A stretch of DNA of 64,000 nt from Spirochaeta cellobiosiphila DSM 17781 (GTDB lineage: Bacteria > Spirochaetota > Spirochaetia > DSM-17781). The stretch lies in assembly GCF_000426705.1 (NCBI RefSeq), contig NZ_KE384555.1:1-64000 (forward strand), written 5' to 3'. Shown here piece by piece: positions 1,624 through 9,120 of this stretch. The first letter of the stretch is position 1; every line of letters begins with the position of its first letter. Under the pieces are notes generated by a model that was given only the letters and a program-made list of their open reading frames with translations, did not search any database and had not been told where the DNA came from. The position numbers and the translations under genes were made by a program.

Positions 1624-2526
1624 CTAATGGGCAGTCTTATCATCTCCTTTCAAGCTAATTCCATGTTCATCTAAAATAGAATCAAAAGTCTTAACATCCA
1701 CATCATCAATTTTATCACGAAGATTAGATATCAACTCATCATCCTTAAACCCTTTTTCAATTGCCATCCTAATATCTTCCCATCCAGCGTCTTTTTCACC
1801 TAAATAAAGAATATACAAACGTCCTCTGAGAAATAAAAACAATCCATCGGCTCTTCTTATATTATCACTATACAAATCAACAGCTTTTCCATATAGCTTC
1901 TCGCCTTCATAGGCTTTTCCAAGATACTCTAAGCCATGGAAATTATTTTCATCTTTTGACAAACTTAGTATAGCAACCTGCTCCATCAATAGATAATTCT
2001 CCACATGATCAGCAAAAACCAATATTTTATCTAACTGATTCAAAGAAAGCTCATTGAAAGGAGACAGTTTATCCAAATAACCATTAGCCTTAGCTTCATC
2101 AACATCTTTGGTTAATATAAATAAGTTCCAAATAACATCAAAATCAAACTCATTTAACAACAAAACCCTATTGTACAGATCAATCGAGTGAGAAAAATCA
2201 CCCTTTTTATAATATAGATAAGCCTGGGCTTTAAGAATTTTAGTATTCGACGGGTCCTGGGCCAATAATTCATCAAGAAAAACTTCTGAATCTTCCCATA
2301 CACCTTGTTCAGCCAGAACTATAGCCAGGTTATACGAAGCTGCTTTTAAATGAGGATCCCACTTAAGCGCTTTTTCAAGAGCAGAAGCAGAATCATCATA
2401 TTTTTTTAGCTCTGAATAACTAAGTGCCAAATTATAATAAGCAGCCCCAATATTCTTATGTTCTTCATTAAATGATGAACAGCCCATAAAAAATAGAAAA
2501 CTAAACCCCAAGAATAGTTTCTTCAA
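1624..2526 (-). CDS. TPR-repeat lipoprotein
   Basis: Encodes 300 residues with a lipoprotein signal: MKKLFLGFSFLFFMGC, Cys16 being the likely lipidated residue. Several tetratricopeptide repeats follow (for example AYYNLALSYSELKKYDDSA and AASYNLAIVLAEQGVWEDSE), so it is probably a membrane-tethered scaffold in the periplasm. The start is TTG at 2526, preceded by GAGG and overlapping the last 26 bases of the upstream phosphoribosyltransferase-like gene, which implies translational coupling. The partner of the TPRs cannot be told from sequence. Confidence 0.85.
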   Translation of the reverse strand: MKKLFLGFSFLFFMGCSSFNEEHKNIGAAYYNLALSYSELKKYDDSASALEKALKWDPHLKAASYNLAIVLAEQGVWEDSEVFLDELLAQDPSNTKILKAQAYLYYKKGDFSHSIDLYNRVLLLNEFDFDVIWNLFILTKDVDEAKANGYLDKLSPFNELSLNQLDKILVFADHVENYLLMEQVAILSLSKDENNFHGLEYLGKAYEGEKLYGKAVDLYSDNIRRADGLFLFLRGRLYILYLGEKDAGWEDIRMAIEKGFKDDELISNLRDKIDDVDVKTFDSILDEHGISLKGDDKTAH

Positions 2527-3565
2527 TTTTCCTCACCTGCCAACGATAAAGATCAACAATATTGGTTCCATAATCAGCTATTAATTGTAAAATATTCCTG
2601 GGATAATCTTCTGCATCTACCCCATTCAATCGATCACCGGCATCACCCAACCCTGGCATAATATAGGCTAGATCATTCAAAACGGGATCCATCCACAAAG
2701 TATACATCTCTACAGAGTCAAGTGCACGAACAACATTCAATGCGCCCTTCAAAGCACTAATAACATTAAAAAACTTAATGCTTTTCGGTTTGATATTATT
2801 TTGTTCAAGATAAGTAACAATAGTAACAAAACTACCACCTGTTGCATTCATTGGATCGGCAAAAATCAAATCCTTACCATTAAGTTGATCCAGATCAAAG
2901 TAAGACTTATCTAAATCAAGGATGTACTCCATATTGGAAGCTTTTTTCTCATCGTTTCTTTTTATTTTAAATAACGCGAAAGGAGTTACATATCCTGTAG
3001 AGGAATACTCCTGAATCTCTTTACTCATGATCATAGACGGCAAAAGCGCCCCACGCAACATGACGCACATGACAGAATTCTCTATAAGGTTATCAATATC
3101 CGGTATTTTGTGAACAGCAAAATTCTGTGTGGGAACATTTACAGGAGTTTTAACAATAAGGTGGTTCTTATTTTCTTTAACCGCCCCACCAAATGCTAAA
3201 TTAAACAGCAACTCATAAGCTCTTTGAATATAATACACAAATTCCTGATGGTCCGTTCTGGTATTCCTTAACTTAGCAATAAGCCGACTAGCCTCTCCAT
3301 GAACCTGACTGGGTGTTTCAAATGAATAGACATGAATACGAGGGAACTCTTTTAAGATATTCTGCATTTTTTGTCCCATTTCATTGTAGAGATTAATTAA
3401 CTTCTGTTTTTCCTTAAGAACAGTCCCTTCATTTGGATTTCCATCCAGGATTTTGCACGATTTTAAAGCTTGATCAAATAAACTATGCATATCTTCCAGA
3501 ACAAGCTTATCACTCTCATTTAAAAATCCATCCAAATCTTCTGCTCTTAATATTTCCTTAGACAT
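2501..3565 (-). CDS. Uracil phosphoribosyltransferase-like protein with N-terminal extension
   Basis: The C-terminal two thirds match the UPRT family: the PRPP-binding loop DPMNATGGS (family usual DPMLATGGS), the uracil-recognition segment PGLGDAGDR, and an N-terminal SRLIAKLRNTRTD stretch similar to the UPRT start. UPRT makes UMP from uracil and PRPP. At 354 residues it is about 145 longer than typical UPRT; roughly 85 extra residues precede the UPRT homology and there is a C-terminal tail. I choose ATG 3565 because AGGAG lies 5 bases upstream; an in-frame GTG at 3571 is the alternative. It shares a transcript with the TPR lipoprotein. Confidence 0.85.
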   Translation of the reverse strand: MSKEILRAEDLDGFLNESDKLVLEDMHSLFDQALKSCKILDGNPNEGTVLKEKQKLINLYNEMGQKMQNILKEFPRIHVYSFETPSQVHGEASRLIAKLRNTRTDHQEFVYYIQRAYELLFNLAFGGAVKENKNHLIVKTPVNVPTQNFAVHKIPDIDNLIENSVMCVMLRGALLPSMIMSKEIQEYSSTGYVTPFALFKIKRNDEKKASNMEYILDLDKSYFDLDQLNGKDLIFADPMNATGGSFVTIVTYLEQNNIKPKSIKFFNVISALKGALNVVRALDSVEMYTLWMDPVLNDLAYIMPGLGDAGDRLNGVDAEDYPRNILQLIADYGTNIVDLYRWQVRKIEETILGV

Positions 3566-3606
3566 CCTCACTCCTATACCATTTGGTTAATTTCCATTCC
3601 CATCAA

Positions 3607-3635: not shown

Positions 3636-3670
3636 TTTGTATGTATGATAACAATTATGTAGGAGTTAAT

Positions 3671-4141
3671 ATGAAAAAGATCATTATAGCCCTGGCCTTT
3701 CTTAGTATTTCAGTTGGTGCTTTTGCACAAACAGGATTAGGAGCTGCGTTTCACTTCATGAATGGCCCAACACCAGGCATATCCTTTAATATTGCATCAC
3801 CCAAAATCCCCGGGACTGTGCTCGGCCTCTCACTAAACATTGATGCTGATTCGTTTGATGTGGGAATGTATGATGACTGGTGGTTATACCGTCAAATGAT
3901 AGCAGGACCTTTAAGCGTCTACCTGGGACCAGGTTTTTATGTACGCATAAAAGGGGATGGAGATACAATAGATCCTAACTTTGGAGCAAGGATGCCAATC
4001 GGATTACAATTCTTCCCCATAGAACCACTTGAACTCTTTATTGAGGGAGCACCAACAGCCGGTATTCAGGTTGGTGATAACTTTCAATTTCCCGTGTGGG
4101 GTTTTCAGGCTGGCCTAGGACTTAGGTTCTGGTTCAACTAA
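3671..4141 (+). CDS. Small outer-membrane beta-barrel protein, spirochaete type
   Basis: Encodes 156 residues: a Sec signal peptide (MKKIIIALAFLSISVGAFAQ, cleavage after AFA) followed by alternating hydrophobic/polar strands rich in Gly and aromatic residues and ending in LGLRFWFN, a C-terminal aromatic typical of barrels inserted by BamA. Size fits an eight-stranded barrel resembling the small DUF3996-type spirochaete proteins; that family link is tentative. ATG 3671 has AGGAG at the right distance; an upstream ATG at 3641 has none and would bury the signal peptide. A strong terminator follows. Confidence 0.8.
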   Translation: MKKIIIALAFLSISVGAFAQTGLGAAFHFMNGPTPGISFNIASPKIPGTVLGLSLNIDADSFDVGMYDDWWLYRQMIAGPLSVYLGPGFYVRIKGDGDTIDPNFGARMPIGLQFFPIEPLELFIEGAPTAGIQVGDNFQFPVWGFQAGLGLRFWFN

Positions 4142-4419: not shown

Positions 4420-4448
4420 AATATATAGTTTTTACAAAAAAGTGTCAA
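4420..4448 (-). promoter_or_regulatory. Promoter of the tRNA-Lys/tRNA-Glu pair
   Basis: Minus-strand TTGACA (4443-4448), 17-base spacer, TATATT (4420-4425). Expected transcription start about 9 bases upstream of the tRNA-Lys 5' end. Confidence 0.82.
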
Positions 4449-4471: not shown

Positions 4472-5623
4472 TTAATAGGAAAACTCCATTCCTAATCGTA
4501 AGTTATAGACTGACTTTACTCCTGGTTCAGTGCTTAGTTCCTTTCCATAAATAGCTAAATTTAATCTTAAAAATTGTAAATTCATACCCATACCAGCATT
4601 TAATAAAGCTTGATAGACACCTAATCGAAGAGACAAAATATCCAGTAATGTAACCTCAGATCCTATACCAAGATGCAAAATAGGATTAACACCATTTTTT
4701 GGCTGAAGAAGAAAATCAAACATATCCGAGTAATCTGCCATTAACTTCCAGTCAGATAAGTACTTATTATTTTTCAAAAAAGAAGGTCTATACATGACAC
4801 CCAAATTAATTCGCTGTGGTAAAAACTCATTATTAGTACTTAGTTCATTTGTTTGAGCATTTTTCATAAAACCATCTAATGAGGAATAGATCTTCATATT
4901 TTCATAAGTGATCAGATCCATAACAGACATTCCGACCTTCAGCCGGCTTTTGTAACTGTATAAAAAACCTAAATCACTTCCCATGCCTGTTGTAAAGATA
5001 AAGGGCTGTTCAGACAAATAATTAGAACTCATACTGCTTATCACATCTACAACATCGACAAGAGATTCTGAGAGATTCACACCACCGGAAACATATCCCT
5101 TTAGATTAAATCCTGCATCTACCCGATGAATATCTGATTTAATAGGCAAATTAAAGCTGTACCCTCCTACAAGAATAGTGGATTCCTCAAAGGCAGCATC
5201 AACATCAGTGGATGTCTTCATTGTCACACCTGATTTATTAAACAAACCAACCCCTAAACCATTACCTACATAGGCAAAGCTTAAAGGACCAGCTAAATCC
5301 ATCCCCGCATACAAACCGGTCAAAGTTTCCACTGCTCCATCCGGCAAGCCGCCTGAGGAATCTTTATTAGAAAGAAAAACATTGGCAATAGTAAATACCG
5401 GTCCCGTCAATAGTAGGTCTAATTGGGTAATAGTGATCTCAGGCTCTGCTGTAAGGTATCCAGCAGGGTTCGTAAACAAAGCATCCCTATCATCAGCTAG
5501 AGCAGCATGAGGGCCTCCTATAGCTGATCTACGTACTGTTGATATATCATAAGCACTTATAAAGTACTGACTAAAAAAAAAGAGAACCACTATAGCGATG
5601 GGGGTCTTATTACTTATCAACAT
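4472..5623 (-). CDS. Outer-membrane beta-barrel protein (spirochaetal FadL/TraF-like), copy 2 of a tandem pair
   Basis: Encodes 383 residues with a signal peptide ending near residue 24 (FFFSQYFISAYD). After it comes AIGGPHAALADDRDALFTNPAGY, the Ala/Asp-Asn-Pro-Ala-Gly signature at the N-terminus of FadL-like and PorV/TraF-like barrels, in which an early small-residue segment precedes amphipathic strands. The protein ends in LRLGMEFSY with a terminal aromatic, as barrels do. A matching gene lies at 6328-7497. Each is preceded by a lipoprotein gene, in the order lipoprotein-barrel-lipoprotein-barrel. Probably an outer-membrane transporter or porin; the substrate is unknown. Ribosome site AGGAG. 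Confidence 0.78.
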   Translation of the reverse strand: MLISNKTPIAIVVLFFFSQYFISAYDISTVRRSAIGGPHAALADDRDALFTNPAGYLTAEPEITITQLDLLLTGPVFTIANVFLSNKDSSGGLPDGAVETLTGLYAGMDLAGPLSFAYVGNGLGVGLFNKSGVTMKTSTDVDAAFEESTILVGGYSFNLPIKSDIHRVDAGFNLKGYVSGGVNLSESLVDVVDVISSMSSNYLSEQPFIFTTGMGSDLGFLYSYKSRLKVGMSVMDLITYENMKIYSSLDGFMKNAQTNELSTNNEFLPQRINLGVMYRPSFLKNNKYLSDWKLMADYSDMFDFLLQPKNGVNPILHLGIGSEVTLLDILSLRLGVYQALLNAGMGMNLQFLRLNLAIYGKELSTEPGVKSVYNLRLGMEFSY

Positions 5624-5634
5624 ATTGCTCCTTT

Positions 5635-6282
5635 TTAAGAAATCATAGTATTCAGCTGATCCACTAAGTTGGCTAAATCCGTTCCTTCTTCTGCATTAAT
5701 TTGTCCTACTAAAGCTAAAGCAGCATCCGTTCGTGGCGTACCCGATGTTAATGAGTCTAAATCATTAGTACCTGTTTCTTTTGCCTGTTTCAAAGCTAAT
5801 CCGGCAGCCAGAAACAAGAGTTGATCGTCATCCAGTTTGGAGGAATCGATATTAGAAACATTACTGTAAGCCGTATCAAAATAGTCTAAATCCAAACTAC
5901 TTGATGTAAGGATATCATTCAATGCAGAACCAATATCACCACCATCACTGGTAGTATCGGCTAATGAAGTAATCGCGTCCTCGACCCCACTCGCTTTAAC
6001 GGCTAAATCAACAGATAGCCCTACGATATCTTCATAATCACTATCTGAAGGACTCTTATCCCCTAATATTTTTTGTATTGCATTAAAAGCCTCATCAGCT
6101 TCGCCAGGATCGTCTGAATAGAGAGCTTGTTCTGCTCGTTCAATTTGAGCACTTACAGGGAGAGAGGAGTAATCCCTTTGTAGATAGGAGGCTAAACTCA
6201 TGGTAAACAAATCTTCACAAGAAACGAATAAACTAAGAATAGCTAAACTAATTATCATCTTTATAAACAAGGTCTTTTTCAT
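5635..6282 (-). CDS. Lipoprotein, partner of the barrel at 4472-5623
   Basis: Encodes 215 residues. The signal MKKTLFIKMIISLAILSLFVSC has a lipobox with Cys22. The mature part is acidic, Ser/Asp-rich and mostly helical (AEQALYSDDPGEADEAFNAIQ), looking like helical repeats with no catalytic motif. It stops 11 bases before the barrel gene start, so the two are cotranscribed. The lipoprotein at 7508-8347 shares the same kind of segments (counting-type helices around ADLIDxM/ALALVGQI) and the same position, but the similarity is weak by eye. Probably periplasmic and accessory to its barrel. Confidence 0.72.
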   Translation of the reverse strand: MKKTLFIKMIISLAILSLFVSCEDLFTMSLASYLQRDYSSLPVSAQIERAEQALYSDDPGEADEAFNAIQKILGDKSPSDSDYEDIVGLSVDLAVKASGVEDAITSLADTTSDGGDIGSALNDILTSSSLDLDYFDTAYSNVSNIDSSKLDDDQLLFLAAGLALKQAKETGTNDLDSLTSGTPRTDAALALVGQINAEEGTDLANLVDQLNTMIS

Positions 6283-6327
6283 TATCGCTCCCTTAACTTA
6301 AGTCCTAAATATTTTCGGCACAGAGTT

Positions 6328-7497
6328 TTATATTCTCAATGCTATTTCTATCATATATCCAGTTCTTTTATCTGCCTGGGCAGCATAATTACCCAACTCT
6401 TCACTAAATCCTACTAAATTTATATCAAATACTGCAAAATGAACCCCACCACCAAGACTAACATCTCCGCCATTTAGTCCAGCACGAAGAGTGAAATATT
6501 TGAACAAAGTTAGCTCTGTACCAAAATGAGTCTGAGTTAAAAAACTTTTTTCCTTTTCTGTAGATATCTCATGTCTATACTCTGCACTAAAAGAAGGATC
6601 TATGTATTTTTTCCTCATTCTCAAGTCAGGATGATAGGATGCGCCTAAAGCAATAGTCATAGGTGTAGATGCTTGTGCATTTCTTCCCTCACTGGAATCT
6701 AAATTACTAGCCCCCTTATCAAAAACTTCAGATATAGTTTCCTTCGAATAATACATCCTAGTACCAAACAAATCTCTGATACTAAATCCTATTGTGAACT
6801 CATTAATTTCAGCGATCAAACCAGCATCTATACCAAGACCAAAACCTTGATAGACAATTGTTTCATCTAAGGATGTTGAATTATCATCAGAACTCTTATT
6901 TGATATGACATTTTTCAACAAGGGATTTGTTTTAATTCTATAAACAGGCCTTATGTCACCACCTAAATGAATTGGAAAACCGGAAAAATCAAACTTATGT
7001 GATAAACCAGCTACAAAAGAAGTATCAGAGATAAGCTCAACCTCAACTCCTAACAAGCTTTCACCACTAGCATATATATCAGTAGACTGAAAGAATCCCA
7101 ATCCCAATCCTTTACCAACAATTCCGATTGCACTACCATTCCCATTAAGCCCAACCCCAGTATCCAATAAAAGAGAATTCATAATACTCACAAACTCATC
7201 ATTATCCAATAAGTCGTCACTATTAGAATCAGTCATGTAATCAATGACTCGCTTCAAATCTTTAGGATTCCCCCAGGTCCCAATAGAGGCACTAATGAAG
7301 GTAACATCCCCCCCTTCACGGCTGAAACCAGCGGGATTTGTAAACAACGACACATAGCCATGAGCAGTTGCAACACTAGTATCGCCTTTACCTAATAATA
7401 TAGGATTATACACCTTGAATGGCTTATCGTAATTATCTTCAGCATAGAGAGAGGTGAAAGCAGTCAAAACAATAATCATCAATAATATACGTCTCAT
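6328..7497 (-). CDS. Outer-membrane beta-barrel protein (spirochaetal FadL/TraF-like), copy 1 of a tandem pair
   Basis: Encodes 389 residues: signal peptide cleaved near LYAE, then YNPILLGKGDTSVATAHGYVSLFTNPAGF, the same small-residue plus TNPAG motif as in the neighbouring barrel, many amphipathic strands, and the C-terminus MIEIALRI. ATG 7497 is chosen because GGAGG lies 5 bases upstream; an in-frame GTG at 7503 is too close to it. Sits 10 bases downstream of its lipoprotein partner. Both barrels keep a predicted strand rich in GLGxGLF/GLGLGFF near residue 130, which supports a duplication. Confidence 0.78.
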   Translation of the reverse strand: MRRILLMIIVLTAFTSLYAEDNYDKPFKVYNPILLGKGDTSVATAHGYVSLFTNPAGFSREGGDVTFISASIGTWGNPKDLKRVIDYMTDSNSDDLLDNDEFVSIMNSLLLDTGVGLNGNGSAIGIVGKGLGLGFFQSTDIYASGESLLGVEVELISDTSFVAGLSHKFDFSGFPIHLGGDIRPVYRIKTNPLLKNVISNKSSDDNSTSLDETIVYQGFGLGIDAGLIAEINEFTIGFSIRDLFGTRMYYSKETISEVFDKGASNLDSSEGRNAQASTPMTIALGASYHPDLRMRKKYIDPSFSAEYRHEISTEKEKSFLTQTHFGTELTLFKYFTLRAGLNGGDVSLGGGVHFAVFDINLVGFSEELGNYAAQADKRTGYMIEIALRI

Positions 7498-7507
7498 AAT
7501 CACCTCC

Positions 7508-8347
7508 TTAAAAAGTTAGACCAGAAGTGTCTAACACTAATTCTAAATACTGATAACTTGTGTTACCAGATCCTGTAGAATCCATAATACCAGTTAGTTC
7601 ATCAATATTATTTTGTAAACCTGTCTCATTTATAATCTTATCATAGCCAACTGTATTTCCTTTATATACGAAATCATTATCTCCATTAACATCTGCAGTT
7701 AACAAGATATAAAAGGCCTCTTCTGTACTGTAACCCGAAGAGTTAGAACTCTTTATAATATCCACAATCATGCTAATTGCTGTTACCACAATAGCTTGCT
7801 GAACGAGAGTACTCAAGGCAGCCTCATCCATATCGAGTAACACTTGTGAGGAACTTACATTGAATACTGCAAGAGCATCTTCAACTGTGGTCATAATATC
7901 AATAAGATCTGCCACCTCTTCAATACTTGAAGGACTCCCCAAGAGATTAGTAAACAGCTCTTGTGTTATAGAGGGCTTGCTTCCAATGTCACTGGAATCA
8001 CTAAGTAATGTATTAATAACATAAGGTACATTGTTTACAGCTGTATTGCCCTCAGATCTACTAAGCTTAAGATCCACCATCAAGAGAGCAGCCTCCTGCT
8101 TGTCTGTTGTAGACCCTTGACTCATGGTCTTTTGCAAAGATTCGCTCATTTTTGCGACATCACTACTACTCAGATCATCGGGATTAACATTATTGAGAAT
8201 TTTCGCTATGTCATGATTTGACATACTGGAACTTACATTATATTGATATTTATCTATACTTTCAAAAAGGTTGGTACCAATTACATCACAATTACTGAGA
8301 CTTAAGGCGGTAATGATGACTGACATAATGATTGCTTTTGTTTTCAT
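7508..8347 (-). CDS. Lipoprotein, partner of the barrel at 6328-7497
   Basis: Encodes 279 residues. MKTKAIIMSVIITALSLSNC gives a lipobox (LSNC, Cys20). The mature chain is Ser/Asp/Asn-rich and helical (for example LMVDLKLSRSEG and EVADLIDIMTTVEDALAVF) without known catalytic residues. It is the first gene of a four-gene minus-strand unit, with a strong GAGGAGG ribosome site. Likely periplasmic face of the outer membrane, acting with the barrel encoded next to it. I do not recognise a named family. Confidence 0.72.
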   Translation of the reverse strand: MKTKAIIMSVIITALSLSNCDVIGTNLFESIDKYQYNVSSSMSNHDIAKILNNVNPDDLSSSDVAKMSESLQKTMSQGSTTDKQEAALLMVDLKLSRSEGNTAVNNVPYVINTLLSDSSDIGSKPSITQELFTNLLGSPSSIEEVADLIDIMTTVEDALAVFNVSSSQVLLDMDEAALSTLVQQAIVVTAISMIVDIIKSSNSSGYSTEEAFYILLTADVNGDNDFVYKGNTVGYDKIINETGLQNNIDELTGIMDSTGSGNTSYQYLELVLDTSGLTF

Positions 8348-8448
8348 GGTATCCTCCTCACTAACAGTTCACATCATATATTATACTTCATTTCTTATAA
8401 AAATCTTATACTACTAATATCTCCAATGATGGCATAGTTAACAAGTAT

Positions 8449-8476
8449 AAAAAAACTCTCCCCTGTAGGGAGAGTT
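8449..8476 (-). terminator. Rho-independent terminator
   Basis: Stem AACTCTCCC (8454-8462) with GGGAGAGTT (8468-8476) around a 5-base loop. On the minus strand it is followed by a T-run (8455 down to 8449). It ends the bactofilin-TPR transcript. Confidence 0.9.
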
Positions 8477-8505
8477 CTCTATATAGTACAAGAATAGATA
8501 AATAC

Positions 8506-9120
8506 TTAACCTTGTTGACTACGCTCTAAACCACGGATAGCATCTTCCAATCCAGGATTAAGTTCAAGAGCCTTCTGATAAGCCACCTTGGCCCAGGTAT
8601 AATCTTTAGCTCTTTCCCGGGCATACCCTAGACGAGCCCACCATCTGGCCACATTGGGAGCATGATGAACTGCTGTAGATAAAGCTATATCCGCATGGTG
8701 ATACTCTCCTAATCGAATAAAAATCTCCCCCATAAAAAAGAAAACAGTATCAATTCTGTCCTCAGAAGGAGCTATGCTTGAATACTCTTCAAAGTATTTC
8801 AGGGCATCCAAATTCCGTCCTAGATAAAAATAGCTTTCCCCTAAGGATTCAATAATCCTATAATCATAACGTCTAACCTTAAGGGCTTTCTCCATTTCAA
8901 TCCGGGCCTGATCATAACTACCTTTTCGAACAAGACTCCAGCCCATAATGGTATAAGCATCCATATTCTCTGCATTCATCTGCAAATCAGCACGACAAGC
9001 AGCAATAGCCTCATCATACTTACCTTCTCGATATAAGGCTAAGGCATCGGCCCTCTGGGAAAACAAAGGAAGAGAGAAAGAAAGCAACAATCCTATTACA
9101 ATAAAGAAACCTTTATTCAT
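8506..9120 (-). CDS. Exported TPR protein
   Basis: Encodes 204 residues: signal peptide MNKGFFIVIGLLLSFSLPLFSQ, then about five tetratricopeptide units (ALYREGKYDEAIAACRADLQ, AYTIMGWSLVRKGSYDQARI, ARLGYARERAKDYTWAKVAY). ATG 9120 has GGGAG upstream and overlaps the stop of the bactofilin gene (ATGAATAA), so translation is coupled; a longer frame from 9147 would run into the bactofilin gene and hide the signal peptide. Probably a periplasmic scaffold working with the bactofilin, for example in cell shape, but this link is from position only. Confidence 0.85.
   Translation of the reverse strand: MNKGFFIVIGLLLSFSLPLFSQRADALALYREGKYDEAIAACRADLQMNAENMDAYTIMGWSLVRKGSYDQARIEMEKALKVRRYDYRIIESLGESYFYLGRNLDALKYFEEYSSIAPSEDRIDTVFFFMGEIFIRLGEYHHADIALSTAVHHAPNVARWWARLGYARERAKDYTWAKVAYQKALELNPGLEDAIRGLERSQQG

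Follow-up and report, generated by a model that had tools for sequence, protein, structure and literature searches.

What do two adjoining pairs of lipoprotein and barrel genes do for the outer membrane of a spirochaete? Such pairs lie in Spirochaeta cellobiosiphila DSM 17781 (GCF_000426705.1), on the minus strand of contig NZ_KE384555.1, of which positions 1 to 64,000 were analyzed (hereafter the window). The gene order is LIP1, BAR1, LIP2, BAR2, LIP denoting lipoproteins and BAR barrels. The initial annotation had placed four open reading frames here and proposed the duplication of a two-gene module in which each barrel has its own lipoprotein; all four frames were confirmed in position and strand. 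The question matters because little is settled on how lipids and nutrients cross the unusual outer membrane of spirochaetes, or on how that membrane is built. For Treponema pallidum, the question of how fatty acids are taken up is described as long-standing, and vaccine candidates include FadL-like barrels (PMC8407342). Our favored answer, to which we give a probability of roughly 0.55, is that a two-gene module was duplicated in tandem long ago, each copy encoding a complex of an outer-membrane barrel and a dedicated lipoprotein, likeliest for hydrophobic substrates.

Two ancient barrel paralogues

Sequence comparison places BAR1 and BAR2 in the FadL/PorV/TraF_2 superfamily of outer-membrane barrels. 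BAR1 lies just over the curated cut-off of TraF_2 (PF13729; 25.3 vs 25.0 bits) through a partial match over residues 152-254, and TraF_2 was matched at E<=0.1 by 19 of 32 BAR1 and 12 of 26 BAR2 sequences. Relatives of the two barrels matched TraF_2, DUF5723, PorP_SprF, Toluene_X and UPF0164, mostly weakly. Leaving aside unrelated chance matches, the solved chain closest to the barrels was PorV (6h3i, E 0.0042), followed by CymD (E 0.1), and both matches fall on the hatch region. Scores of the window barrels against PorV_fam (NF033709) were 27.1 and 25.2 bits, where the cut-off is 90. An N-P-A motif near the N-terminus was invariant in the 26 BAR2 and 32 BAR1 sequences; in both window barrels it stands within FTNPAG, so that the TNPAG motif originally reported is present. 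In FadL, the NPA motif is required for substrate-induced opening (PMC8407342).

BAR1 and BAR2 share 24% identity (BLAST, E 4e-10), and their profiles align over the full length (hhalign, E 2e-51). A tree of 181 barrels separated 99 BAR1 from 82 BAR2 sequences into two clades with support 1.0 and none misplaced, and the duplication is therefore ancient, not local. When the tree was rooted on the distant UPF0164 family with out-of-class barrels included, the duplication was placed neither before nor within the class. The duplication first proposed is supported, the two barrels being clear paralogues.

A large insertion after the hatch was observed in BAR1 of families f31 and f41 (L095 7133-8788, L096 6851-8521, L117, L124, L126, L127 and L144), where LIP1 was not recognizable. 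The spacing from NPA to GLG is 153-208 residues in these proteins, compared with a median of 64, and the insertion looks helical in L095 and L096. The idea that it makes up for the loss of LIP1 was dropped, because large insertions in these two families alone represent too few events.

Lipoprotein genes upstream of the barrels

Class-wide searches covered 297 genomes. Adjacency of the class-wide LIP hits was read from tables by eye, and doubtful places were fetched and inspected. The lipobox filter differed slightly between the linkage counts, and the taxonomic grouping of relatives beyond phylum was inferred. Three FlaA matches in the host genome (best E 2.9e-76), against none in 14 well-known control genomes, mark the host as a spirochaete. 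At 82 testable BAR2 loci, the upstream gene matched the LIP2 profile in 73 and was another lipobox gene in five more (78/82). LIP2 was found in another frame at locus L071, giving a 79th BAR2 with a lipoprotein; a LIP2-BAR2 fusion of 613 amino acids at this locus was rejected, as its N-terminal part is an Arg-rich wrong-frame translation. Upstream of BAR1, LIP1 was recognized by hidden Markov model at 50 of 89 testable loci. Seven further open reading frames upstream of BAR1 passed the lipobox filter, including at least one false positive (an MtaB-type gene at L080).

LIP2 was present in 83 and LIP1 in 65 of the 297 genomes, almost always beside a family barrel or at a contig end; lipoproteins standing without a barrel in most genomes, an outcome considered in the initial annotation, were not what was found. 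LIP2 was nearly always a single copy per genome, and many genomes of the class lacked the module. The co-occurrence that was to be looked for across spirochaetes was found, the pair recurring in the class, in a family designated f9 and in other classes of the phylum. In f9, a lipobox gene preceded 21 of 28 barrels, and the genes before the remaining seven look like genes of this kind whose lipobox was missed or cut. An assignment of f9 to the treponemes was given up, as FlaA is absent from two genomes of its genus g9 and the T. pallidum-like genome belongs to f24. In a mostly out-of-class set, 22 of 24 barrels had an upstream lipoprotein gene. As a baseline, an upstream lipobox gene was seen in 8 of 222 ordinary neighboring gene pairs, and none of 15 control loci of the FadL-like UPF0164 family (five of them in one genome) had an upstream lipoprotein. 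The lipoprotein-first order stayed constant across several classes while other neighbors changed. Since the same gene order occurs in many families of the class, the unit is not a product of chance.

Two further loci are recorded here. At L181 (633-1289), a LIP2 has no downstream barrel match and its C-terminal part is unrelated sequence; it looks truncated or chimeric. At L186 (3100-5401), a second lipoprotein-barrel pair of genome G233 adjoins a UPF0164 gene.

Correlation between cognate partners

Tree distances were correlated between the families, with the neighboring TPR protein as the control for species distance. With n=20, the partial r was 0.69 for LIP1-BAR1 vs 0.31 for LIP1-BAR2 (bootstrap fraction 0.0025), and 0.70 for LIP2-BAR2 vs 0.36 for LIP2-BAR1 (0.01). 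With n=46, LIP2-BAR2 gave 0.65, compared with 0.38 for LIP2-BAR1 (0.018) and 0.49 for BAR1-BAR2 (0.10). BAR1 and LIP2 are also adjacent, and adjacency alone therefore does not explain the higher correlation of cognate partners.

Lipidated tail and body of the lipoproteins

The lipoboxes first noted in the two window lipoproteins were found (LSNC and FVSC), and the lipobox Cys is invariant in both families. BLAST found no similarity between LIP1 and LIP2. Their mature profiles are co-linear from the Cys at 97% (hhalign, E about 1e-10), compared with 0.0-6% for unrelated controls. This signal resides mostly in the first 15 residues: it fell to 26% when 15 residues were cut and to 13% when 25 were cut, and reversed controls gave at most 0.8%. 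Thus the expected similarity of the lipoproteins holds for a shared post-Cys tail with weaker co-linear similarity, and little of it extends beyond the tail.

The tail carries an N-[LIVMA]-[FY] motif, sought within 30 residues for f9 partners and within 15 for the others. It occurred in 44 of 48 LIP1, 20 of 21 mostly out-of-class partners and 18 of 21 f9 partners, compared with 1 of 15 control lipoproteins; having been picked after the data were seen, it is a hypothesis-grade signature. An FTxS variant of the tail was present in 58 of 69 LIP2.

Behind the tail, the LIP1 and LIP2 bodies are acidic, Ser/Asp-rich and fast-evolving. The model of LIP2 is all-helical and of moderate quality (predicted local distance difference test, pLDDT, 70). 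Profile scans gave no TPR match for LIP1 and LIP2 of the window, and some LIP2 relatives matched TPR below threshold (best 0.0023). In the out-of-class partners, TPR follows directly on the tail; TPR models were matched at E<=0.01 by 7 of 10, one above the cut-off (TPR_8, 27.3 vs 25.7) and six sub-threshold. A profile of these partners was aligned with LIP2 (88%) and with TPR profiles (94% and 81%). These matches, together with the predicted helical structure of LIP2, suggest that LIP2 may be a TPR lipoprotein whose repeats have eroded, and that the same perhaps applies to LIP1.

Proposed function and alternative explanations

In the arrangement that we favor, each module would provide two parts: a β-barrel of the FadL/PorV superfamily, probably of 14 strands, whose N-terminal hatch bears NPA, and a helical lipoprotein dedicated to that barrel and anchored next to it. 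The lipidated N-terminal tail, C-x(0-10)-N-[LIV]-[FY] or FTxS in LIP2, is the best-conserved part of the lipoprotein and would dock on the barrel. The helical, ancestrally TPR body may gate the barrel or take over what it carries, and the cargo passing through the hatch would most likely be hydrophobic (lipid or fatty-acid-like). The absence of PF03349 FadL from the host genome was counted in favor of this arrangement.

Several observations weigh against it. The trees are small, and distance correlations could partly reflect linked genes having been transferred together. Homology between LIP1 and LIP2 past the lipid-proximal tail is weak, and for the f9 partners profile comparison did not demonstrate homology with either of them. 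An earlier, looser form of the tail pattern also matched 9 of 19 control lipoproteins, after which the pattern was tightened and set against 15 controls. A fold search with the LIP2 model returned no match at E<=0.001, and the LIP1 model is poor (pLDDT 40). About 32 of the 89 testable BAR1 loci had no recognizable LIP1, and BAR1 can therefore function by itself or with a partner that went unrecognized. The dedicated lipoprotein of each barrel, as originally claimed, is upheld by position and by the better cognate correlation, and qualified by these BAR1 loci.

More tentatively, and at somewhat less than even odds, the pairs may represent an undescribed phylum-wide spirochaete system, in which a FadL-type barrel would be plugged or gated by a TPR-derived lipoprotein through an N-x-F tail and which would have been duplicated in one class into two side-by-side specialized channels. 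Our literature search, which excluded subscription literature, found the T. pallidum FadL-like work and no description of the barrel-lipoprotein pair.

The main rival, which we consider unlikely, is a role in outer-membrane biogenesis like that of BamG-BamH: a barrel of FadL fold would grip the lipidated tail of a lipoprotein, and together they would assist in folding or assembling further proteins of the outer membrane. The lipidated N-tail of BamH, a surface lipoprotein, is bound by BamG, a barrel of the FadL family, and both are essential (PMC12611786, PMC12578637). The strong conservation of the tail would suit such a role, as would the single locus of the module in the host genome, which lies beside housekeeping genes and contains the only two barrels of the family. 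However, the PDB chains that the barrel profiles matched did not include BamG. By eye, NPA stands about 33 (BAR1) and 28 (BAR2) residues past the likely cleavage site, and an N-terminal extension like that of BamG, which goes beyond FadL and threads the lateral opening, is not apparent. BamH, as described, is not a helical or TPR protein, and the lack of the module in many genomes of the class is unlike an essential core factor.

A PorV-like shuttle, which would bring lipoproteins or secreted proteins to the surface with the adjacent lipoprotein as cargo or cargo receptor, appears improbable. The weak N-terminal similarity to 6h3i and PorV_fam and the acidic, Ser/Asp-rich, fast-evolving lipoprotein bodies are consistent with it, but the PorV_fam scores of 25-27 bits are far from 90, and one lipoprotein per barrel with a better cognate correlation fits a subunit more than a general cargo. 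Least probable of all, by a little, are independent proteins on a common transcript whose adjacency reflects co-regulation of envelope genes: short gaps, unit boundaries of its own and BAR1 or BAR2 without a lipoprotein in some lineages would agree with this, but the lipoprotein-first order kept among changing neighbors, the lack of lipoproteins at UPF0164 barrels and a cognate correlation above that of the equally adjacent BAR1-LIP2 speak against it.

Layout of the locus and its surroundings

The features of the locus are given in Table 1. Gaps of 4-45 bases had been reported; with BAR1 starting at ATG 7497 they are 10 (LIP1-BAR1), 45 (BAR1-LIP2) and 11 nucleotides (LIP2-BAR2), and GTG 7503, also a possible start of BAR1, would give the value of 4 for LIP1-BAR1. 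The terminator upstream and the promoter-like site of the tRNA genes downstream suggest that the four genes are transcribed together as a unit.

Table 1. Positions of the genes, motifs and putative transcription signals at the locus, numbered as in the window
Feature	Position	Strand	Details
LIP1, lipoprotein, partner of BAR1	7508..8347	-	279 aa; lipobox LSNC, Cys20; family set by position and class-wide matches
LIP1 lipid-proximal tail CDVIGTNLFES, N-[LIVMA]-[FY] signature	8258..8290	-	Sequence and motif counts
BAR1, FadL/PorV/TraF_2-type outer-membrane barrel	6328..7497	-	389 aa; TraF_2 match, family scan, weak PorV 6h3i match
BAR1 NPA hatch motif, N54-P55-A56	7330..7338	-	Invariant in 32 BAR1
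LIP2, lipoprotein, predicted all-helical, partner of BAR2	5635..6282	-	215 aa; lipobox FVSC, Cys22
LIP2 lipid-proximal tail CEDLFTMSL, F-T-x-S variant	6193..6219	-	FTxS motif counts
BAR2, FadL/PorV-type outer-membrane barrel, ancient paralogue of BAR1	4472..5623	-	383 aa
BAR2 NPA hatch motif, N52-P53-A54	5462..5470	-	Invariant in 26 BAR2
Strong intrinsic terminator of upstream TPR gene	8450..8480	-	14-pair stem and T run; divides TPR gene from unit
Possible unit promoter TTTATA-17-TATGAT	8373..8401	-	9/12; weak, count of such sites not above chance
Promoter-like site TTGACA-17-TATATT of tRNA-Lys/tRNA-Glu genes, just downstream of BAR2	4420..4448	-	Sequence pattern

In many relatives, an MtaB-type radical-SAM gene (~450 amino acids) is present at the place corresponding to 8347-8506 of the window; it is absent here, and the terminator lies in its place. 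This conserved gene, between the TPR gene and LIP1, was considered as a third barrel and rejected, because its sequence looks like that of a radical-SAM enzyme of the MtaB type. On the plus strand, positions 3641-4141 encode a small protein of 166 amino acids resembling an outer-membrane barrel; relatives are found close to this locus in several genomes. A neighbor of 356 amino acids (2501-3571) has a DPMNATGGS motif, is phosphoribosyltransferase-like and lies beside the locus in many relatives.

Comparison with known systems

The window barrels resemble the FadL family (Toluene_X, PF03349) in their superfamily-level matches, invariant NPA hatch and glycine-rich strands, whereas the host genome had no match to PF03349 (curated cut-off 29.7 bits) at E<=1. 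Three of the 26 BAR2 sequences matched it at E<=0.1, the best at 3e-4. To our knowledge, FadL has no lipoprotein partner.

UPF0164, with T. pallidum TP0548, TP0856, TP0858, TP0859 and TP0865, likewise comprises spirochaete FadL-like barrels with an NPA/NAA hatch, but it is a separate paralogous family of which the window barrels are not hits. The UPF0164 gene of the host lies elsewhere (C4:110659-111534) and has no upstream lipoprotein. Orthology of the window barrels with the T. pallidum FadL-like proteins was rejected because the host has this distinct gene. In genome G076, which has five UPF0164 genes, no match to the BAR2 profile was found. Three of the T. pallidum FadL-like proteins end in a helical, TPR-like domain (PMC8407342).

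PorV/PorQ of type IX secretion are similar to the window barrels weakly and over the hatch (PorV_fam and 6h3i), but the scores are far below the curated cut-off, and we know of no lipoprotein pair of this kind for them. TraF_2 takes its name from TraF of the F plasmid; BAR1 barely passes its cut-off, while the neighbors in the window are not conjugation genes.

In BamG-BamH of the Bacteroidota BAM complex, too, a FadL-fold barrel is joined by a lipoprotein whose lipidated tail it binds (PMC12611786, PMC12578637), a docking that we infer for the window pairs. The sequences have no detectable relation, the partners here are TPR-like or helical and not of the BamH fold, and no membership feature of BamG or BamH was recognized in the window pairs, the N-terminal extension being judged by eye. 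The pairs would give the phylum a second FadL-type family, distinct from UPF0164, with a constant lipoprotein partner and a short, testable docking motif, and would extend to spirochaetes the barrel-plus-lipoprotein principle of BamG-BamH, SusCD and LptDE.

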